From an uncultured Flavobacteriaceae bacterium (GTDB lineage: Bacteria; Bacteroidota; Bacteroidia; Flavobacteriales; Flavobacteriaceae): DNA of 64,000 nt. Each line of letters begins with the position of its first letter. The stretch's first letter is position 1. This document shows, one piece after another, positions 4,230 through 13,012 of the stretch. Position numbers and translations under genes: made by a program. The stretch lies in contig CANMXP010000002.1 of assembly GCA_947501845.1 (NCBI GenBank), positions 372,001 to 436,000 on the forward strand. The letters are read 5' to 3'. Below the pieces are notes generated by a model that made no database searches, had not been told where the DNA came from, and saw only the letters and a program-made list of their open reading frames with translations.

Positions 4230-4961
4230 CTAACTAAATTGTTGTTCCAGTTTAATAGCTTCAGGAAACAAAATGTTATTTTCTAAATGAATATGTAAAT
4301 GCAAATCCTTTTCAAATTCCTCTAACATAGCATAAGTCACTCTAAACGTATTGCACGCATCAGCAGGAGGCATATAGTTGTTTGTTAATTTTGCAATTTC
4401 TCTAAAACGAACCCCTTCGTTATCATGCTCATCCTTCATCATGGCTATGGGATTTTCAACAGTACCAAAATGAGGCGCTTGTATTCCTGATTTACTAATA
4501 GTAGCATTGATCATTTTCTTAATAAATGGAAATAGAATGAGTTCTTCCTTTTTCATGTGTGCCGCTAACTCTCCCGAAGATGCCTCAAAGTGCTCATTTA
4601 TTTTTAATAATTCGGGGTGCCTTTCTCCATGCACTCTACAAAGCTTATTTAAAAATTGAAGTAATACGGGTACTTTCTCTTCTACGTAGCGATGATGCTT
4701 TTTTTCAATATAATCAACCAACAAATCTAACGGCCACGATTTATAATCTATATGCTCACCTCCTGTAGCATTTAAAACACTTTGAAGTTTATCCAATAGT
4801 TCGGATGCGGCTATGCCATTCTTACTACATACCTCCTCTACTGTTCTATCTCCGCGACAACAAAAATCTATGCCATAGTTACTAAAAACAGCTGCAGTTC
4901 TAAAATCCTCGGCAACAAATTGTCCGATCTGTTTTTGTGAATCTTTAAGTATTGTTTCCAT
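4230..4961 (-). CDS. ric: Iron-sulfur cluster repair di-iron protein Ric (ScdA/YtfE family)
   Basis: A cytoplasmic di-iron protein that repairs iron-sulfur clusters damaged by nitric oxide or peroxide. The 243 residues match the family length. Residues 1-60 form the ScdA_N domain with the typical YGIDFCCRG motif (paired cysteines). The rest is a hemerythrin-like four-helix bundle supplying iron ligands: HHRYVEEK, HGERHPELL, AAHMKKEEL, KDEHDNEG and HLHIHLENNILFP. It is transcribed just downstream of an Rrf2-type regulator gene (51-base gap). A palindrome in that gap resembles one in front of the regulator itself, so direct control by it is likely. Confidence 0.93.
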   Translation of the reverse strand: METILKDSQKQIGQFVAEDFRTAAVFSNYGIDFCCRGDRTVEEVCSKNGIAASELLDKLQSVLNATGGEHIDYKSWPLDLLVDYIEKKHHRYVEEKVPVLLQFLNKLCRVHGERHPELLKINEHFEASSGELAAHMKKEELILFPFIKKMINATISKSGIQAPHFGTVENPIAMMKDEHDNEGVRFREIAKLTNNYMPPADACNTFRVTYAMLEEFEKDLHLHIHLENNILFPEAIKLEQQFS

Positions 4962-4979
4962 AATAATTATTTTTAATTC

Positions 4980-4993
4980 GGATAATTTTATCC
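4980..4993. promoter_or_regulatory. Candidate Rrf2 operator in front of ric
   Basis: GGATAATTTTATCC is an inverted repeat of the half-site GGATAA. It lies 18 bp upstream of the ric start and matches 12 of 14 positions of the palindrome over the promoter of the adjacent Rrf2 gene (5492-5505). The regulator is inferred from proximity. Confidence 0.55.
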
Positions 4994-5012
4994 TATTTTA
5001 ATTCAAATTTTT

Positions 5013-5447
5013 TTATATCTTTAAAAATGATGCCCCAGACTTAATATTAAGTGCTAATTCTTCAAGATTGGTATTTTCTAGCATAGACCTCAATTCTTCC
5101 CTTACGGATTTAAATTTATGATGCACAGGACAGGGGTGCTCTTCATTACAAGTGTGAAGCCCTAATCCGCAACCACTGTAAATAGCATCTCCATCAATGG
5201 CATTAACTATATGTGATAATTTTACTGAAGAAATTAATGCTTTTTCAATTTCAAAACCGCCATAGGCACCTTTGGTAGAACTAATAACACCATGTCTCAC
5301 TAAATCCTGAAGTATTTTAGCAGTAAATGCCTCGGGCGAATTAATCTCTTTAGCAATAGCTTTAAGGCTAACGCGAACACCCTTATAAGAGCTTAGCGCA
5401 ATAAAAATTGACGCTTTAATACCATATTCGCAAGCTTTAGAAAACAT
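5013..5447 (-). CDS. Rrf2-family transcriptional regulator (NsrR/IscR type)
   Basis: A 144-residue DNA-binding regulator starting at MFSKACEYG, the usual Rrf2 start. An in-frame start 33 bases upstream would add an atypical extension and is rejected. Residues 1-80 form the winged helix-turn-helix (SLKAIAKEINSPEAFTAKILQDLVRHGVI). The C-terminal half carries three cysteines (YSGCGLGLHTCNEEHPCPVH), placed as in Fe-S-binding members such as NsrR and IscR. Together with ric it forms a minus-strand pair, so it probably senses nitric oxide or redox stress through a cluster. A palindrome overlaps its own -7 element, implying autorepression. Confidence 0.9.
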   Translation of the reverse strand: MFSKACEYGIKASIFIALSSYKGVRVSLKAIAKEINSPEAFTAKILQDLVRHGVISSTKGAYGGFEIEKALISSVKLSHIVNAIDGDAIYSGCGLGLHTCNEEHPCPVHHKFKSVREELRSMLENTNLEELALNIKSGASFLKI

Positions 5448-5490
5448 ATAGATTATAAATTTAATACAAAAATAAGCCATTCTTTCAATA

Positions 5491-5506
5491 AGGACAAATT
5501 TATCCT
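5491..5506 (-). promoter_or_regulatory. Promoter of the Rrf2 gene overlapped by a palindromic operator
   Basis: On the minus strand TAAATTTG (5502-5495) fits the Bacteroidota -7 consensus TAnnTTTG. It is embedded in the imperfect palindrome AGGACAAATTTATCCT, whose core resembles the site before ric. A repressor bound here would cover the -7 element. Confidence 0.55.
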
Positions 5507-5560
5507 AATTAAAATTGATTCTATTTATACCCAAGGTTTAACCCATTGAATTATTGTATT

Positions 5561-5574
5561 TACGGATTACCGTA
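5561..5574 (+). promoter_or_regulatory. CRISPR-locus palindrome, copy 1 (before TPR-cas1-cas2)
   Basis: TACGGATTACCGTA differs at one position from the palindrome between tracrRNA and cas9 (12684-12697, read on the minus strand). A candidate -7 element TACATTAC begins at 5597, 22 bp further on, and the start codon of the TPR-protein gene is at 5648. No TTG -33 element is visible at the usual distance, so an activator site is plausible. It could instead serve the divergent Rrf2 gene, but no -7 element stands at the mirrored distance on that side. Confidence 0.6.
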
Positions 5575-5647
5575 CCCTACTGATAACCAATATACTTACA
5601 TTACAGCTAAATTGTACAATAAGCCATAAACCTTAATACCATTTTAG

Positions 5648-6559
5648 ATGAATAAATTTCTAACACTAATCCTGCTTTTCTTAATCAATTTTGGGTTTTC
5701 ACAAGAAATAAAAAGTGAGTCTCATCAAATAATTAAACCAAGAAACATTTATTTAAATGGAGGAATGCGCACTGCATTTGGAGGCAAATCCAGGACCTTT
5801 TTAAAAATAGATTTACCACCAAATACTGTACAGTGGTACTATAGTTTCTCTACATCAAAAGGAAAAAGTGGTATTAAAAACCTCAATTTGGCATTACAAC
5901 TTTCAAGTTTATTTTCAGGCTCTGGAGCAATAAGCTCAACTGCTATGTCATCAATTAAAGTACCTCCAGGTTCGGGTTCTATTGATATTTATTTATGTGA
6001 CCGCAAAAACATTGACCTTTTTCAAGATAAAATCGACAATAAAGGTGGAACTTTTTATCATATCATAGAAGGCACTGTAGAAAACACCAAACAAGCAGTT
6101 GTTCAAATTAACGATGTTAAAACCAACACCTGGTATTTGGGGATAAAAAACCCTAGCTCGCTAGATGGCATCAATATATCTATTGAAGTCGTTGCCATAA
6201 CCGAAGAAATAATAACAAAAGCAAAATCACCAGAACAAGAAAAAGCAGAACTATATGGTAGTATTGGATGGGCTCAATTTGAGAAGGGAGATTACCTAAA
6301 ATGTATTGAATATTGCGATAAAGCAAATGCAGAATACAAACTGGGCTGGGTAAATGCCAATAAGGGACTTGCCCAGCTTATAATAGGGCAAGAAGCTATA
6401 GCAACAGAAACTTATATAAATGCAATTAGCTTGATTAAAAAGCAAACAAACCCAGATTATATATTTAAAGAAGTGCTAAAAGATATCAATAATGCTTTAA
6501 GAGTAAATCCAGAATTAAAAGGAGCACTAGAAATTAAAAAACTTATTGAGTGGCAATAA
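5648..6559 (+). CDS. Secreted/periplasmic protein with C-terminal TPR region, overlapping cas1
   Basis: A 303-residue protein of no recognised family. Residues 1-19 (MNKFLTLILLFLINFGFSQ) are a Sec signal peptide. Residues about 25-195 are beta-rich with a glycine/serine-rich stretch (LFSGSGAISSTAMSS). Residues about 200-300 look like two or three tetratricopeptide repeats (GWAQFEKGDYLKCIEYCDKAN; GLAQLIIGQEAIATETYINA), a protein-binding scaffold. Its last 10 bases overlap the GTG start of cas1, and it is the first gene of the cas1-cas2 transcript. A palindrome shared with the cas9/tracrRNA promoters lies upstream. Export conflicts with a direct role in adaptation, so a chance operon or an envelope-linked accessory role are both open. 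Confidence 0.7.
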   Translation: MNKFLTLILLFLINFGFSQEIKSESHQIIKPRNIYLNGGMRTAFGGKSRTFLKIDLPPNTVQWYYSFSTSKGKSGIKNLNLALQLSSLFSGSGAISSTAMSSIKVPPGSGSIDIYLCDRKNIDLFQDKIDNKGGTFYHIIEGTVENTKQAVVQINDVKTNTWYLGIKNPSSLDGINISIEVVAITEEIITKAKSPEQEKAELYGSIGWAQFEKGDYLKCIEYCDKANAEYKLGWVNANKGLAQLIIGQEAIATETYINAISLIKKQTNPDYIFKEVLKDINNALRVNPELKGALEIKKLIEWQ

Positions 6560-7440
6560 TTAAGAAAACCTTACTATTTTCCAATAAATGTTCAATAACG
6601 ACCAAACATGAGCAATTAGTTGTTAAATCTGAAACAAGAAACACAACCATACCCATAGAAGACGTTGGGTTTATAGTAATTGATAACCCCGAAATATATA
6701 TAAGTGTTACCACTTTAAATCTACTTATTGCAAATAATGCCTCTGTAATTATCTGCAATAAAATACATTTGCCCAATGGCATGTTTTTAAATTTAAACAG
6801 CCATCATATCCAACAAGAAATATTTAAGTACCAAGTAGAAGCAAGCCTCCCTTTAAAAAAGCAATTATGGCAACAAACCATTGTTGAAAAAATTAAAAAC
6901 CAAGGTATACTATTAGAAAAAATAACCCAAAGAAATAATACGTTTGACTATTTAGCGAGCAAGGTTTTAAGTGGAGACACCTCAAATATGGAAGCAGTGG
7001 CTGCTAATTTTTACTGGAAATCCTTTTTCGAAATTAATTTTAAAAGAGCACGTTTTGGCAGCTACCCCAATAACTTTTTAAACTACGGTTATGCTATTTT
7101 AAGGGCAGCTACGGCCAGGGCTTTATCGGGCAGTGGTTTGCTAAACACGCTGGGCATACATCATAAAAGCAAATACAACGCATTTGCCTTGGCAGACGAT
7201 ATTATGGAACCCTTTAGACCCATTATAGACGAAGCCGTTTATACCATCATGCAGCATTACGATGAAGAGGATTTAAATACAGAAATAAAATCTGTACTAC
7301 TTCAAACCCTAACAAGAACCGTTTATTTTAAAGACGAAAAAAGTCCGTTAATGGTAGCGCTTCAAAAAACGGCAAGTTCGTTACAACAATGCTATTCTGG
7401 GAAAAGAAAAAAAATCAAGTATCCCAAACTATGGAACTAA
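6550..7440 (+). CDS. cas1: CRISPR integrase Cas1 (type II-C)
   Basis: Cas1 is the metal-dependent nuclease-integrase that, with Cas2, inserts new spacers at the leader end of the array. The 296 residues match type II Cas1. The start is GTG at 6550, giving MAIIKKTLLFSNKCSI, the standard type II N-terminus; no better ATG exists. The metal triad is visible as Glu148 (NMEAVAANFYW), His205 (LGIHHKSKYN) and Glu220 (ADDIMEPFRPIID), matching Glu149/His205/Glu220 of Streptococcus Cas1. The gene overlaps its upstream neighbour by 10 bases and cas2 by 10 bases, so all three are probably translationally coupled. No csn2 or cas4 is present, as expected for II-C. Confidence 0.97.
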   Translation: MAIIKKTLLFSNKCSITTKHEQLVVKSETRNTTIPIEDVGFIVIDNPEIYISVTTLNLLIANNASVIICNKIHLPNGMFLNLNSHHIQQEIFKYQVEASLPLKKQLWQQTIVEKIKNQGILLEKITQRNNTFDYLASKVLSGDTSNMEAVAANFYWKSFFEINFKRARFGSYPNNFLNYGYAILRAATARALSGSGLLNTLGIHHKSKYNAFALADDIMEPFRPIIDEAVYTIMQHYDEEDLNTEIKSVLLQTLTRTVYFKDEKSPLMVALQKTASSLQQCYSGKRKKIKYPKLWN

Positions 7441-7760
7441 ATGGCTATAGAATTATGTGGTTATTTGTATTTTTCGATTTACCAACAGAAACTGCCAAAG
7501 ACAGAAAAAATGCTTCTGGTTTTAGAAAAAATATTCTTAAAGATGGCTTTACCATGATGCAATATTCTGTATACATAAGGCATTGCGCCAGCGGCGAAAG
7601 TGCCGATGTACACGAAAAACGTATTAAAAGGCTACTCCCTCCTTTAGGCAAAGTAAGCGTACTTAGAATTACAGACAAACAATTTGGCAATATTATAAAC
7701 TTTTGGGGCAAAATAGAAGTCCCTAAAGAATCTCTACCAACCCAATTGGAACTGTTTTAA
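7431..7760 (+). CDS. cas2: CRISPR adaptation protein Cas2
   Basis: Cas2 is the small ferredoxin-fold dimer that bridges Cas1 dimers during spacer integration. The start chosen is ATG at 7431 (MELNGYRIMWLFVFFDLP), which gives 109 residues, the normal length. The longer frame opening at 7389 would run through the end of cas1 and adds residues foreign to the family. The first beta strand with its conserved aspartate (FVFFDLPTET) and the MQYSVYIRH strand are characteristic. It overlaps the end of cas1 by 10 bases. The CRISPR array starts 105 bp downstream. Confidence 0.95.
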   Translation: MELNGYRIMWLFVFFDLPTETAKDRKNASGFRKNILKDGFTMMQYSVYIRHCASGESADVHEKRIKRLLPPLGKVSVLRITDKQFGNIINFWGKIEVPKESLPTQLELF

Positions 7761-7865
7761 AACAAAAAAACACCTCAATCTTGCCTTATCACTGCAAAAA
7801 AGAAGCATTTTTTAAAACGATATTTTCGCTTAACCACATGACTACCAGAAGGTAACAAACCAACT
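7761..7865 (+). other. Probable CRISPR leader
   Basis: An AT-rich 105-bp stretch without a gene lies between the cas2 stop and the first intact repeat. The opposite end of the array carries a truncated repeat, the usual mark of the old, leader-distal end, so new spacers are expected here. No promoter was clear. Confidence 0.5.
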
Positions 7866-9208
7866 AATATCGTGTTTCCTAATCTTTAATCAAACTACAA
7901 CACCCGCATCACTCATGTTTGTTGACTCTAAAATATCGTGTTTCCTAATCTTTAATCAAACTACAACCATGCACTTTGTGTTAAGGTTAACCATGACAAT
8001 ATCGTGTTTCCTAATCTTTAATCAAACTACAACCATGTTGCCTATAGCATCTATCATGCCTATAATATCGTGTTTCCTAATCTTTAATCAAACTACAACG
8101 GGCGTGGATAGTGTTTATTTTAGGGACTGAATATCGTGTTTCCTAATCTTTAATCAAACTACAACTGAACGGAAGCCTTGTAAACCCTGTTTTCGAATAT
8201 CGTGTTTCCTAATCTTTAATCAAACTACAACTGTCTGATTCTCAGATGTTGCAATTATAGAAATATCGTGTTTCCTAATCTTTAATCAAACTACAACGGA
8301 TTTACCACCATCCCTAACAATATTTAGAATATCGTGTTTCCTAATCTTTAATCAAACTACAACACTAAATCTGTAGTTAAAATGTCAAAAGATAATATCG
8401 TGTTTCCTAATCTTTAATCAAACTACAACAATTCCATTCTTATTACGTCTGCTATGTGAAATATCGTGTTTCCTAATCTTTAATCAAACTACAACTGAAA
8501 GATGTGAACACCACTCAACAGAATTAATATCGTGTTTCCTAATCTTTAATCAAACTACAACGCATTTTTAATTTGATCTTCCTGGGCTAACAATATCGTG
8601 TTTCCTAACCTTTAATCAAACTACAACCTAGCGCAAACTAATTGAGTTAGTTTTTGCAATATCGTGTTTCCTAACCTTTAATCAAACTACAACTATGGAT
8701 GGCGACTATACTGATTTTAAAGAATATCGTGTTTCCTAACCTTTAATCAAACTACAACTAAGTCGGTGTAGTTATATTGGTTTTCAACAATATCGTGTTT
8801 CCTAACCTTTAATCAAACTACAACCAAAACAAAGACAATTAAAAACAAAAGCGAAATATCGTGTTTCCTAACCTTTAATCAAACTACAACGGGCAATCCC
8901 ACACCCATTTTAGTGGCATCAATATCGTGTTTCCTAACCTTTAATCAAACTACAACGGATGTTCCTTTGTTGTTTTCTACATATAAAATATCGTGTTTCC
9001 TAATCTTTAATCAAACTACAACGGTAACGTACCTGATCGAACCTGTGTTGCAAATATCGTGTTTCCTAATCTTTAATCAAACTACAACTATGTAAACAAC
9101 TATTGCACCTCGAGCTTAAATATCGTGTTTCCTAATCTTTAATCAAACTACAACATGTCGGTCTTTGTTCTCATATGCAACCCTAATATCGTGTTTCCTA
9201 ATCTTTAA
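7866..9208 (-). CRISPR. Type II-C CRISPR array, 20 full repeats plus one truncated, 20 spacers
   Basis: The repeat unit is 36 bp, reading AATATCGTGTTTCCTAATC... to ...CTACAAC on the plus strand. Full repeats start at 7866 and recur every 66 bp. Spacers are 30 bp, except spacer 13 (8694-8722), which is 29 bp. The last unit (9185-9208) keeps only the first 24 bp on the cas9 side. Repeats 12-17 (8592-8956) carry a T-to-C change (CCTAACC for CCTAATC); repeats 1-11 and 18-21 do not. The crRNA strand is minus: the repeat read that way begins GTTGTAGTTTGATTAAAG, the usual II-C start, and pairs with the tracrRNA anti-repeat. Transcription therefore runs from the truncated end toward the leader, an arrangement described for II-C loci, where promoters can lie inside the repeats. 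Confidence 0.99.
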
Positions 9209-9242
9209 ATGTCAATGAACTTAATATTTATAAATTTAGTAA

Positions 9243-12200
9243 TTAAATTTTCTTTAGCTTTCCCGAAACTAAGACTTTAACTTTTATAGGATTGAAAGTT
9301 AACCAACCTGTTTTTCCTTCTCCATAACTTTGTATTCTAATATAATATGGAGAAGTATTTTCTTGTATAGTAGCTTCACTATTCAATCTAAATTCATAAA
9401 ATTTTGACGATAGTTTCTGCACTCTATACAAACGTTCTCGTAAAACTTTATAGTCTGGATTTTCCCAATCAATTTCATCTTCATTTACTCCTAATAAAAA
9501 CATGTCGTTAATATGCAAAGTAGTTACTATTTCTTCGCCTTCAAATGGTAATTTATAAATTGAAGTTCCTTGTTTTTTTCGTTCTACAACAGTCCAAAAA
9601 GTAACAACATCTTCTTTTAGGTCTCCACTTGTATCTTTATAAATTAAGACATGATGGTTATTCCTAGGGTTTACCCATTTGTTTACATTACTTTTTAACT
9701 GTTCTGCTCCGCTAAAGTTTTCTTTCATTCTTACTTTTAAAACTGGTACTGGGTCGCCATTCTTATTTGGTAAAAATATTTGTGGTTGTTTTACACCATG
9801 CTCATCAACAATAAAAAAGGTGTTTGTTGGAATTTTTCCTTTTTCAAAGCCTCCTAGCTGTTGTATTCGCTTTAATATTAACAACCTAATAGTTTCGTCT
9901 ACAACTTTATCTATATGTTTGGAAGTCGTTAAACTATCTATCGGTTTACGTACATGAAAGGCTTCGTCACTAAATGGCGCACTACGCCTACCAAAAACGG
10001 TTTCCTTATGCAATTGCCCTCTAGCAGCAACACCTTTATTTTTGTGTTTTCTTCCGTTCTTTTCTGTTATATGCGTTCTAACCGTAATATCATTTTTTAT
10101 ACACTTATGAGACACCAAAATATTATCAACAGCTTTTTCTGCATCATACCTAAATGTTTTCCAAGGCATCGGAAAATCTTTTAATTCTGGCTTTCTGTTA
10201 TATCTGTTCCATTTAGACAACTCTTGTACATATGAAACTTTGGTACATGCCATTACTAAGGCATCAATGGCATGATGGCGATGGTCTTCGCGAGATTTAG
10301 AGTTTTCTGTATTTAAAACATGATTTAAGCCCCATTTGTGGCGTAAATTAGAGGTTACCTGCCCAGGCGAAACCGTTACCTTGTTACATATTTTAGAAAG
10401 ATAATTTTTAGCTTCTTTACTTATATACCTCGTATCATTTAACTGTCGTGAGGTAAAATCATCATCAAAATTTTGCTGAACAAACCTTTTAAACTTTTGA
10501 TATGCATTGGGATATTCTTTAGTATCCGAAAACAATTTTAAAGCACGTTCTTTAATGGTTGCCCAATTAGCTTCGTCTTTTCCATAAAACTCAAAAGGCG
10601 TTTTAGCTCCTTTTTTTCTATTCTCATTGGCCCAACACAAGGTTTTGTTTCCAAAGCTATCATTTAACGACCTGCTCCATGGATGAATATGTTCTATTTG
10701 AACTTCTCCCGAAAACAAATCTGTTATTGATATTGCTTTTCCTGTATAAGGGCAGGTTTTTTTACATTCTTCCCAGAGTTTAAATTTTAAAATATTCTCA
10801 TGTGTTATGCGCACATATTTTTCTACTTCACTTTTAATTCTATCATTTTCGCGCTCCAATCGTTTTTGATTTCTTCTAATTTGATTGCGTTTAGATTTAG
10901 ATGATTTTAAGTCGCGAGCCATCTCTACCTTTATTTCGTCAACCGCCCCGTAGTCATCAATTAATTCATTAACCAATTTTCGCAACTCAAACAAAGCCGT
11001 TATTACTATAGGGTTTTTTATAGATTGAATTTCTTTATCGGCATACTTATCTACTGGTAATCTTTCTAATAAAGCACTATGGTTGATTGAAGATGAATGG
11101 TGATATAATTTTTTTAACCGCCTATCATTAAATCCAAAATCTTTACGAAGCAACCCTTTAATCGTATCGGTATAGCCTCCCTTAATTTTAGTATGGACTA
11201 TATCCTCTACATTATCAATTAGTTCTAATTGTTTTTTATTATTTTCTAAAGAATCCTTTTGCCACTTGTCTCCAAAAGCATTTTTTATGCCCCCCATGGC
11301 TACAGCCACATCGTAGGCATAACCCTGTTGTAAAAACGGTAAAATATTAGAAATGGCTTTTCTACTTAAACTGGCATAACCATCTTTTACATTAAACTTT
11401 GAAATGGCTTCGGCCTGTGTTTCGGTGAAACCCCAATTTTTAATAGCATACGCTTTTAAATTGGACTTACTATCAAAAAAGTACAAAACATGCCAAATAT
11501 CATCCTGCTCCTTTGGAGTAAAATCGAACCATTTTTTACCAAAGTACTTTTTATGGGATAAATTGGAAATGGTATGTGTACCACCTATTTTATCATCATC
11601 TTTAAAATTAAACTTATATTCTGCACTTTCTTTACCAATAAGTTTTCTTATTCTTTTAAAAACAGGCTTTTCTATAGAAAACAGAAAACCAACAATTTTT
11701 TGCTTTTCTTCATGACTTATTTTAGTCCCGTTACACTCTACAGTATTTACCCATTGCCAAACTCTAAATTGTTCAAAAACAATAGCGCTTAACGGGCATT
11801 TAGTTTTTGTTGGCTCGAAAGGGCAACTGCCCACCAGGTGTTTTTGAGAACGCAACGGGCGCTGATGAAATAAAATACCATCTTCATTATAACCATCTAA
11901 TTTTCTGCCTCCAAAAAGTGTTTTCAAGTCATCATCTAAAACAGTATGAAATTGCGCTTGTTTCTTCCAAATCAACTCAAATTCATCTATATACATTTTT
12001 CGTGTAGTGTACCTATTTCTTATACGCTCTAAACCGTTTTGAAAAGGTTGATGTTCTTTAGGGGAAATTTCAAATAGGTACGAACCCAATGTTTTTTCTT
12101 TAATACGCTCTGTAGTTTCTGTAATCCCTATTTTTCCTTCTTTAGTATTACCCTTAAAAATAGCGCCATCATCTGCCCCGCCTTTTCTACTATTACTTAA

Positions 12201-12629
12201 AAACCCTCTGCGTTGAATTAAATGATAAAAGATTCGCCCTATTTCTTCTAAAGATAATTTTTCGTGCAATGCTCTGCTCCTTAACTCATAAGGATTTAAC
12301 GCAAACCATGAAGTTAATTTTTCCGAAGGAAATTGTTTGGTTTTTTTCCATGCATCAAAATCTTGATCCTGTAACGGGCACATATTATATTTAGAAAGTT
12401 CTTTAAGCAGTTTTTTCTTTCTTAAACGCCTTCTAAAAAACTGTCTTCTTACACCTCTGGCTCCTGTTCTATTGGCATTTTTAGACATTTCATTGTCGCC
12501 ATCTCCCAAATTATCTACACCCATTGGAAAAATCCTACTACCAATACCAAGTATTTTATTTTGACTGTTGTCAATTATTGCCCAACCTATACTATTAGTC
12601 CCTAAATCCAGCCCTAAAACTTTTGTCAT
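9243..12629 (-). CDS. cas9: Type II-C Cas9 endonuclease
   Basis: The RNA-guided double-strand DNA nuclease of the locus, 1128 residues, in the compact II-C range. RuvC-I is at the N-terminus (GLDLGTNSIGWAII, Asp8), followed by an arginine-rich bridge helix (RRQFFRRRLRKKKLL). RuvC-II holds Glu569 (IKVEMARDL). The HNH domain has QIEHIHPWSRS with His647 and the NENRKKG helix. RuvC-III has DHRHHAIDALVMA with His786 and Asp789. All catalytic residues are present, so it should be active. The C-terminal 250 residues are the PAM-interacting region; the PAM cannot be read from sequence. It is convergent with the array and divergent from the tracrRNA. A TACATTTA -7-like element lies at 12660-12653. Confidence 0.98.
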   Translation of the reverse strand: MTKVLGLDLGTNSIGWAIIDNSQNKILGIGSRIFPMGVDNLGDGDNEMSKNANRTGARGVRRQFFRRRLRKKKLLKELSKYNMCPLQDQDFDAWKKTKQFPSEKLTSWFALNPYELRSRALHEKLSLEEIGRIFYHLIQRRGFLSNSRKGGADDGAIFKGNTKEGKIGITETTERIKEKTLGSYLFEISPKEHQPFQNGLERIRNRYTTRKMYIDEFELIWKKQAQFHTVLDDDLKTLFGGRKLDGYNEDGILFHQRPLRSQKHLVGSCPFEPTKTKCPLSAIVFEQFRVWQWVNTVECNGTKISHEEKQKIVGFLFSIEKPVFKRIRKLIGKESAEYKFNFKDDDKIGGTHTISNLSHKKYFGKKWFDFTPKEQDDIWHVLYFFDSKSNLKAYAIKNWGFTETQAEAISKFNVKDGYASLSRKAISNILPFLQQGYAYDVAVAMGGIKNAFGDKWQKDSLENNKKQLELIDNVEDIVHTKIKGGYTDTIKGLLRKDFGFNDRRLKKLYHHSSSINHSALLERLPVDKYADKEIQSIKNPIVITALFELRKLVNELIDDYGAVDEIKVEMARDLKSSKSKRNQIRRNQKRLERENDRIKSEVEKYVRITHENILKFKLWEECKKTCPYTGKAISITDLFSGEVQIEHIHPWSRSLNDSFGNKTLCWANENRKKGAKTPFEFYGKDEANWATIKERALKLFSDTKEYPNAYQKFKRFVQQNFDDDFTSRQLNDTRYISKEAKNYLSKICNKVTVSPGQVTSNLRHKWGLNHVLNTENSKSREDHRHHAIDALVMACTKVSYVQELSKWNRYNRKPELKDFPMPWKTFRYDAEKAVDNILVSHKCIKNDITVRTHITEKNGRKHKNKGVAARGQLHKETVFGRRSAPFSDEAFHVRKPIDSLTTSKHIDKVVDETIRLLILKRIQQLGGFEKGKIPTNTFFIVDEHGVKQPQIFLPNKNGDPVPVLKVRMKENFSGAEQLKSNVNKWVNPRNNHHVLIYKDTSGDLKEDVVTFWTVVERKKQGTSIYKLPFEGEEIVTTLHINDMFLLGVNEDEIDWENPDYKVLRERLYRVQKLSSKFYEFRLNSEATIQENTSPYYIRIQSYGEGKTGWLTFNPIKVKVLVSGKLKKI

Positions 12630-12652
12630 GATTTTTATATATTCAATGAAGC

Positions 12653-12660
12653 TAAATGTA
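12653..12660 (-). promoter_or_regulatory. Candidate -7 element of cas9
   Basis: TACATTTA on the minus strand resembles TAnnTTTG. It lies 23 bp from the palindrome at 12684-12697 and about 24 bp before the cas9 ATG. No TTG is found at -33. Confidence 0.5.
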
Positions 12661-12683
12661 CAAAAAACAATGGTAGTTTTTCT

Positions 12684-12697
12684 TACGGTAAACCGTA
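12684..12697. promoter_or_regulatory. CRISPR-locus palindrome, copy 2 (between cas9 and tracrRNA)
   Basis: TACGGTAAACCGTA is an inverted repeat of TACGGT. Exactly 23 bp separate it from the tracrRNA -7 element (starts 12721) and 23 bp from the cas9 -7-like element (starts 12660, minus strand). It is thus centred near -44 of both promoters, where an activator would act. The minus-strand reading matches 13 of 14 bases of the palindrome before the TPR-cas1-cas2 operon. Confidence 0.65.
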
Positions 12698-12720
12698 CAG
12701 CTATATGCAGATTATTTTAT

Positions 12721-12728
12721 TATATTTG
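12721..12728 (+). promoter_or_regulatory. -7 element of the tracrRNA promoter
   Basis: TATATTTG is a perfect match to TAnnTTTG. It predicts a transcript start near 12735, just before the anti-repeat. There is no TTG at -33. Confidence 0.7.
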
Positions 12729-12734
12729 TTTTAG

Positions 12735-12824
12735 ATTAAACATCCTAATCTTTAATCTTATTACAATAAGGCTATATGCCGTAGACAAAAAGTCTTTAGT
12801 CCTGCCTCGGTGGGACTTTTTATT
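12735..12824 (+). ncRNA. tracrRNA of the type II-C system
   Basis: The RNA that pairs with crRNA and loads Cas9. The anti-repeat at 12744-12767 shares CCTAATCTTTAATC and then TACAAT with the plus strand of the CRISPR repeat, with a 4-base mismatched bulge between the two blocks, as in other II-C duplexes. It is followed by AATAAGGCTATATGCC, the small GGC/GCC nexus hairpin typical of II-C tracrRNAs. A terminator hairpin at 12798-12817 (AGTCC...GGACT, CTCG loop) runs into TTTTTATTT. Predicted length is about 90 nt. It is divergent from cas9 and on the opposite strand to the crRNAs. Exact ends are inferred. Confidence 0.92.
12798..12824 (+). terminator. tracrRNA terminator
   Basis: A GC-rich stem (AGTCCTGCC with GGTGGGACT) with a tetraloop is followed by TTTTTATTT. 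It forms the 3' hairpin of the tracrRNA. Confidence 0.85.
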
Positions 12825-12930
12825 TATTGCAGATTAGAATCGGGCGAAAACTTTAAAACTTATTTTAACATGAGCTCGATATAAATTATATTCAAAAACA
12901 ACCGAGTTAATAGTTTAAAAAACAGTGTCT

Positions 12931-13012
12931 TGTCATGTCGACAGAGCGAAGGATGAGCGACGAGACATCTCAATAAAGTGAGATTCCTCCTCGTTTCTCG
13001 TTCGGAATGACA
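12931..13012. repeat. 82-bp REP-like palindromic element
   Basis: TGTCATGTCGA at the left end pairs with TCGGAATGACA at the right, and ACATCTC faces GAGAT around a short AT loop. The ends match the element at 36352-36432 (TGTCATGTCGA... AATGACA) and are related to the tandem units at 14810-16322. It lies in the gap after the tracrRNA; a 60-codon frame across it is only the palindrome translated. Confidence 0.7.

Follow-up and report, generated by a model that had tools for sequence, protein, structure and literature searches.

A type II-C CRISPR-Cas locus lies within the 64,000-nucleotide stretch of DNA analysed here (the window; contig CANMXP010000002.1 of an uncultured Flavobacteriaceae bacterium), and its promoters carry a 14-bp palindrome of the form TACGGN4CCGTA. 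Judged by its sequence, this palindrome is a real, conserved promoter element, and it is probably bound by a NarL/FixJ-type response regulator (RR), the RR of a peptide-kinase-RR operon that would control CRISPR-Cas together with a few other operons, partly related to defence. The evidence comprises the site itself, its spacing and conservation, its clustering with the RR operon and its association with the presence of the RR, together with the predicted folds of RR and kinase. These observations suggest that one signalling system switches several genes on together, including CRISPR-Cas and some anti-virus genes. Loci, genomes and contigs are cited by our working labels (L, G and C, respectively).

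Two palindromes serve three promoters

The three promoters of the locus, those of TPR-cas1-cas2, cas9 and the trans-activating CRISPR RNA (tracrRNA), are served by two palindromes.

5561-5574, no strand: palindrome TACGGATTACCGTA, a predicted activator site for TPR-cas1-cas2
5597-5604, plus strand: predicted -7 element TACATTAC, 22 bp from the 5561 palindrome, towards TPR-cas1-cas2
12684-12697, no strand: palindrome TACGGTAAACCGTA (minus-strand reading TACGGTTTACCGTA), common to the divergent cas9 and tracrRNA promoters
12660-12653, minus strand: cas9 -7 element TACATTTA, 23 bp from the 12684 palindrome
12721-12728, plus strand: tracrRNA -7 element TATATTTG, 23 bp from the 12684 palindrome

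Both palindromes stand exactly where a previous, sequence-only reading of this DNA had placed them (5561-5574 and 12684-12697), and the spacings of 22, 23 and 23 bp to the -7 elements that it gave are correct to the base. The exact motif TACGGNNNNCCGTA occurs in the window in these two copies only, and none of 100 dinucleotide shuffles of the window contained two. The element TACATTAC is two bases off the consensus TAnnTTTG; an identical TACATTAC is found in L036 (Flavivirga algicola).

The palindrome is rare in the genome, since exact copies of TACGGN4CCGTA were fewer than those of a reversed control pattern (4 versus 8 in 5.37 Mb), as were copies with up to one mismatch (42 versus 137). The two exact copies outside the window lie at C2:129879 and C11:115025. 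The genome probably belongs to the genus Flavivirga: in genus member G002 and in L036 the palindrome coordinates on one contig are identical. Relatives were represented by cas9 loci gathered by scanning the genus and genome contigs. Their cas9-tracrRNA intergenic regions repeatedly contain the palindrome, in full or with one of its halves weakened; it begins 64-70 bp before the cas9 start codon, with -7-like hexamers at gaps of 21-24 bp. L036 has a site orthologous to the 5561 palindrome that scores 21.4 bits by the matrix described below, and other RR-bearing loci also have sites before cas1. Neither the profusion of copies nor the loss of the palindrome in related II-C loci that would have refuted the sequence-only reading was thus seen. 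Furthermore, in 12 genomes of the genus exact palindromes numbered 34 (control pattern, 55), and 9 intergenic ones among them lay within 5 kb of the RR gene (binomial p ~1e-15).

A promoter rule and its application to cas genes

Intergenic sites around RR genes that do not belong to cas genes (up to one mismatch) were followed by TAnnTTTG at exactly 22 bp in 32 of 49 cases and at 21-23 bp in 36 of 49, cases that are not independent events because the loci are partly related. The palindrome is a conserved element that keeps a constant spacing immediately ahead of the core promoter, which fits the class II-type activator site previously proposed. The strict unit ACGGN4CCGTA-N22/23-TAnnTTTG was found 62 times, in 33 of 120 family genomes, against 5 matches of the reversed control; part of the 62 are of a kinase-internal kind discussed below.

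The spacing also bears on the direction of control. NarL-family proteins can repress, and tight silencing at rest would make sense for defence genes, which are costly. Even so, it is improbable that the RR represses from the palindrome and holds CRISPR and defence genes off until a signal arrives, the position of most sites 22-23 bp upstream of the -7 being better suited to activation than to occlusion.

A matrix trained on non-cas sites only was applied to the regions before cas9 and cas1, with bit cuts picked after the scores were known. Before cas9, scores of at least 7 bits were reached in 16 of 17 RR-bearing genomes versus 5 of 18 in which the RR was undetected (Fisher p 8e-5; Mann-Whitney p 0.003); at a 10-bit cut the counts were 14 of 17 versus 4 of 18 (p 6e-4). 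The composite score was often higher towards tracrRNA than towards cas9. When only records without MAG (metagenome-assembled genome) or uncultured in the title were counted, a subset picked afterwards, the split was 10/10 versus 0/4 (p 0.001). Before cas1, at least 15 bits were scored in 16 of 19 RR-bearing rows (window included) and in none of the 11 others (p 7e-6); with the window set aside, the RR-bearing count was 15/18 (p 1e-5).

The composition of these counts was as follows. L064, in which the Cas9 N-terminus is missing, and G134, with a partial cas9, were left out of the cas9 test. The cas1 count omits L049, L063 and other loci in which no cas1 was found in the locus, and takes in L171, which is from the genome of L049. 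L135 and L136 (genomes G001 and G011, both of which have the RR) were counted as RR-bearing, and one of the 11 rows without RR, L052, comes from G028, which has a divergent RR. Note that the 19 rows of the cas1 count, which include the window, L171, L135 and L136, differ from the 19 genomes used for the cas9 and linkage counts, made up of the 17 of the first sample plus G082 and G415.

It is very improbable that the palindrome is an unusual -33-like element for an alternative sigma factor, working with no activator. The fixed spacing to the -7 and the lack of a TTG -33 in the three window promoters, observed in the sequence-only reading, are what such an element would predict, but the palindrome is both rare and symmetric, can be weaker in one half in relatives, is tied to the RR gene, and serves two divergent promoters as a single copy.

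The candidate regulator and its operon

The RR gene is single-copy in the window's genome (G000:C2:131039-131704), about 246 kb from the first palindrome of the window, and stands behind the genes for a small predicted lipopeptide and for a histidine kinase of TPR-DesK type. The RR family splits by score in 36 genomes (at least 235 bits versus at most 106 bits) and is present in all 12 genus genomes searched. Its members have a receiver domain (PF00072) in which D10, D59, S94 and K117 are invariant in 27 rows. The predicted model of the RR (pLDDT, the predicted local distance difference test, of 88) had its best matches, over both domains, in spr1814, VraR and the RcsB-DNA complex (PDB 4hye, 4gvp and 5w43, respectively). 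The kinase model (pLDDT 81) joins a TPR superhelix, matched by LGN, to a DesK/VraS-type core, for which DesK structures were matched. Residues H380-D381 are nearly invariant and N483, D510 and G512 invariant; the kinase carries the His-Asp dimerisation motif and the HATPase domain of DesK/NarX-type (HisKA_3) kinases, the HATPase_c match falling below cut-off in L072. A search of the kinase against Pfam HisKA_3 gave no match.

Just upstream of the kinase, an open reading frame (ORF) of 50-67 aa with a signal-like N-terminus and a lipobox-like Cys was recognised by eye in 26 of 27 loci; its tail is often rich in Pro, Gly or Asp. At L183:4427-7989 a tandem pair of TPR-kinase genes precedes the RR and no peptide ORF is present. 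That the peptide acts as a pheromone is a hypothesis; more simply, it may be an accessory lipoprotein.

In L072 (11578-11758, minus strand) and in 21 further loci, the leader of the peptide-kinase-RR operon resembles a structured RNA. Its stem GGGAAGT/ACTTCCC has 4 of 9 pairs changed on both sides, with 90.9% of cells paired and a covariation score that 0 of 500 shuffles equalled; its weak points are the two outer pairs, which do not form in 10 and in 8 of the 22 rows, and a pair-types measure that does not rise above shuffles. A second, sequence-variable complementarity is interleaved with this stem and could form a pseudoknot (found by script only, with no control). An Rfam search of the L072 leader gave no credible match; a match to IsrR, on the opposite strand and under the gathering score, was taken as chance.

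Divergent from the operon stands a gene (L072:11945-12679) with similar genes of about 230-410 aa in most RR loci; the L072 copy had no match in Pfam or PADLOC. In many loci CAAATGTA and a -7 TACATTTG face this divergent gene. Palindromes with TAnnTTTG 22 bp on also occur in the 3' part of kinase genes (e.g., L181:8741 and L133:8001), 80-95 bp before the RR start. Eleven kinase-internal palindromes with a -7 at 22 bp were excluded, being by eye codons of a conserved ENR..SI.G.I.F-like kinase stretch. They are probably coding, an internal promoter for the RR being the alternative.

The exact copy at C2:129879 belongs to an island that holds the TPR histidine kinase, the RR, and small or nuclease-like genes with matches to DUF4177 (below cut-off), YidD, HSDR_N and SNase. 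In the window's genome this island is not next to the cas genes. Outside the genus set, the RR operon or island adjoins cas genes in 7 of 19 genomes that bear the RR (L043, L045, L046, L049, L061, L065 and G415). The gene order in L171 is RR, palindrome, DUF4177, YidD, palindrome, cas1, cas2.

Evidence that weighs against the response regulator

Several observations speak against the assignment of the palindrome to this RR. G434 (99% complete) has a perfect cas9 site and four other exact palindromes with no RR at E 1e-20, and G245 (99% complete), whose cas9 promoter is the same as that of L041, has a good site with the RR undetected. Conversely, L063 and G082 have the RR and no site at cas9, the cas9 copy of G415 is degenerate (6.8 bits), and no strong site was found within 1.6 kb of cas1 in 3 of the 19 RR-bearing rows (L067, L043 and L054). 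Exact intergenic copies occur with no good -7 at 22 bp in L118, L123 and L275, and ahead of genes without a defence link in L274. Pfam models of helix-turn-helix domains, GerE included, did not match the RR C-terminus, whose helix-turn-helix assignment is that of the predicted fold only.

A second sample of 397 family genomes yielded 16 cas9 genomes besides that of the window, five of them repeats of the first sample: G064, G093, G097, G245 and G431 were counted once with L069, L062, L070, L041 and L055, because their cas9 promoters agree. With both samples combined, the cas9 association became 16/19 versus 6/26 (p 7e-5), or 16/19 versus 6/20 (p 0.001) once distant Cas9s were removed. The Cas9 tree shows 9 changes in the RR and 6 in the site. 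Among its independent pairs, those differing in the RR agreed in 3-4 cases and disagreed in none (p 0.125-0.25), and those differing in the site agreed in 2-4 cases and disagreed in at most 1 (p 0.125-0.625), neither result being significant.

These exceptions could be read as pointing to another widespread regulator, for instance one of Crp/Fnr type or one that is unlinked, with the RR operon merely one of its targets. FNR-type sites have the spacing of a 14-bp palindrome with a 4-bp centre, like the N4 spacing seen here, the genome has 26 matches to cNMP-binding domains, and G434 and G245 have the site with the RR undetected. We consider this unlikely, given that the RR operon lies beside sites in locus after locus and that site presence follows RR presence. 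Moreover, in G028, counted as lacking the RR, two exact palindromes and one near palindrome lie directly behind a divergent RR of 28% identity, which in turn comes after a TPR kinase gene and a small ORF of exported type. The threshold for absence was therefore too strict in at least this genome, and some of the absences may be divergent RRs that fall below it.

Other genes with the promoter unit

In the window's genome, strict or near-strict sites were seen at the two CRISPR palindromes, at three places in the RR island, and ahead of a two-gene operon at C11. A further site, between the peptide gene and the divergent gene, is without TAnnTTTG at 22 bp. When 36 strict-unit sites in 30 loci were fetched, 8 proved to be inside genes and 28 outside. 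Eleven of the latter are before or beside genes of the RR island (the one in L225 may be of the kinase-internal kind), two precede the type I restriction genes hsdR and hsdM, and the remaining 15 precede genes without an assignable link.

Sites with a -7-like element 22 bp away were also found ahead of QatA (L268), of an XRE-HEC-01A-HEC-01B set (L269), of a GmrSD_N gene similar to NsnA/PD-T4-2 (L271), and of a small gene, presumably KTSC-like, that is followed by a PDC-S06-like gene (L128). Their -7 elements (TTATTTTG, TATATTTA, TATTTTTA and TACATTTA, respectively) all depart from TAnnTTTG, and L269 and L271 come from G434, in which no RR was detected. PADLOC was run on 28 proteins, part of the genes next to sites, and gave the following raw match counts: 5 strong matches in a first set of 10 proteins; 3 strong (type I R and M, and TerY) and 1 weak (Cas2b) in another set of 10; and 1 strong, to an Avs2-like gene that is not downstream of a site, and 2 weak in a set of 8. 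This Avs2-like gene (L130) was not counted, as the palindrome lies behind it and the -7, at a gap of 20, faces away from it, towards a 201-aa gene. Intragenic exact palindromes in L119, L121 and L134, with no TAnnTTTG at 20-24 bp, were taken as chance, as were five places in the window's genome that have only a half-site and a -7 (C1:250700, C2:551932, C13:40108, C16:52958 and C20:86666). The half-site plus -7 pattern matched 10 times in this genome, the control pattern 19 times.

The sequence-only reading had predicted a single dedicated regulator of the CRISPR-Cas locus. The element common to cas9/tracrRNA and cas1-cas2 stands, but dedication does not, because the same promoter unit recurs in the RR/kinase island and before other, partly defence-like operons. 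CRISPR-Cas appears to be one member of a small, wider regulon.

A possible mechanism and its wider meaning

From these sequences we infer binding by the RR, its phosphorylation, activation as the direction of control, and the existence of a signal. That signal, which may be the peptide encoded in the same operon, would be sensed by the TPR domain of the kinase. The RR, phosphorylated at Asp59, would then dimerise on TTACGGN4CCGTAA and, centred 29-30 bp upstream of the -7, recruit RNA polymerase to promoters with TAnnTTTG-like -7 elements. The palindrome between cas9 and tracrRNA would act in both directions and the second palindrome would drive TPR-cas1-cas2, while sites in the RR island and elsewhere would drive nuclease-like and defence-like genes.

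A bolder and rather doubtful extension makes this peptide-signalling system of Bacteroidota a master switch of immunity. An exported lipopeptide, its gene preceded by a structured RNA leader, would act through the TPR kinase and the NarL-type RR on CRISPR adaptation, interference and guide RNA, and on Qat, HEC-01, GmrSD-type, PDC-S06, type I restriction and the nuclease island, all by one promoter architecture. If so, neighbours, lysing kin or a damaged envelope would prompt bacteria to raise their whole immune repertoire.

To our knowledge, both the coordination of many defence systems and the switching of type II-C CRISPR in Bacteroidota are little understood. The literature searched, which excluded preprints and included few subscription journals, showed us no earlier account of the site, and none in which CRISPR is controlled by this RR family or by a system of peptide, kinase and RR. 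The ComX-ComP-ComA system of Bacillus subtilis links a peptide, a membrane kinase and a NarL-type RR, and the ComA box TTGCGGN4CCGCAA is laid out like the TTACGGN4CCGTAA seen here. Unlike that system, the one proposed here has a TPR sensor and targets that would include CRISPR and defence-like genes, and no peptide-processing gene was identified. RcsB, VraR and spr1814 resemble the predicted fold of the RR, but at 15-20% identity and with no GerE match in Pfam for the RR. If the RR assignment holds, one regulator, one site and one promoter rule would predict co-regulated genes, explain the joint turning-on of adaptation and interference, and offer a handle for finding defence genes by promoter.

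Three systems described in the cited papers are comparable. The VicR/VicK two-component system controls type II-A and I-C CRISPR in Streptococcus mutans (PMC10013973). It likewise affects CRISPR-Cas expression, as proposed here, and differs from the present case, in which a NarL/FixJ-type RR, a type II-C locus, a member of Bacteroidota and a defined candidate site common to other genes are involved. Quorum sensing controls CRISPR in Serratia, where the signal is acyl-homoserine lactones, and in Pseudomonas aeruginosa (PMC10013973). A possible self-made signal governing adaptation and interference jointly is the likeness; a predicted exported lipopeptide and a TPR kinase, with a putative role in signalling, set the present case apart from Serratia. 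Finally, deletion of RAYM_RS09735/RS09740, an OmpR-type RR and a BaeS/PhoR-type kinase, changed expression of cas9, cas1 and cas2 in Riemerella anatipestifer, along with about a third of all genes (PMC5399024), which again links a two-component system to cas genes, in a relative within Flavobacteriales. The terms 'palindrom', 'LuxR', 'TPR' and 'binding site' are absent from the text of PMC5399024, and the available parts of neither paper contain the RR family or site described here.

The CRISPR-Cas locus and its neighbours

The genes of the locus are as follows.

5648..6559, plus strand: gene for a TPR-containing secreted-type protein, between the cas1 promoter and cas1 (TPR_1 match below the curated cut-off)
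6550..7440, plus strand: cas1 (PF01867; GTG start as listed)
7389..7760, plus strand: cas2 (PF09827)
7866..9208, minus strand: CRISPR array with repeats of about 36 bp (14 exact copies of one repeat variant)
9243..12629, minus strand: cas9, 1128 aa, type II-C-like layout (Pfam RuvC_III and HNH_4)
12735..12825, plus strand: tracrRNA, with ends estimated by eye (terminator-like GTCCTGCCTCGGTGGGACTTTTT)

The presence of cas9, cas1, cas2 and a tracrRNA is that of a type II-C locus. Neither csn2 nor cas4 was found, the other ORFs of at least 80 aa in 5.6-12.8 kb being the TPR gene and unsearched short ORFs that overlap cas genes. The tracrRNA is supported by an anti-repeat at 12743-12757, a 15-nt match to the array repeat; an Rfam search of 12600-13000 gave no match. 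The array (7866..9208) contains no exact palindrome. A gene similar to the TPR gene precedes cas1 in L036, and none does so in L037, L135 or L136. In several relatives the cas2 start is the methionine of an internal MELNGYRIMW. A cas9 relative with one in-frame TGA lies in the RR-bearing genome G082 (C3:238980-242363; L235).

Divergent from the cas1 operon, on the minus strand, an Rrf2 regulator gene (5013-5480) is followed by a gene for a RIC/ScdA-type hemerythrin (4230-5480 together). Because of this divergent position beside TPR-cas1-cas2, the Rrf2 protein and its RIC/ScdA-type partner could be imagined to bind the palindrome and tie CRISPR to nitric-oxide or iron status. This is scarcely credible: in L037 the Rrf2 pair lies about 12 kb from cas1 and the palindrome is still at cas1, and the sites in other genomes cluster with the RR. 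The Rrf2 gene has a different inverted repeat of its own, AAGGACAAATTTATCCT, seen by eye at about 5488-5507.

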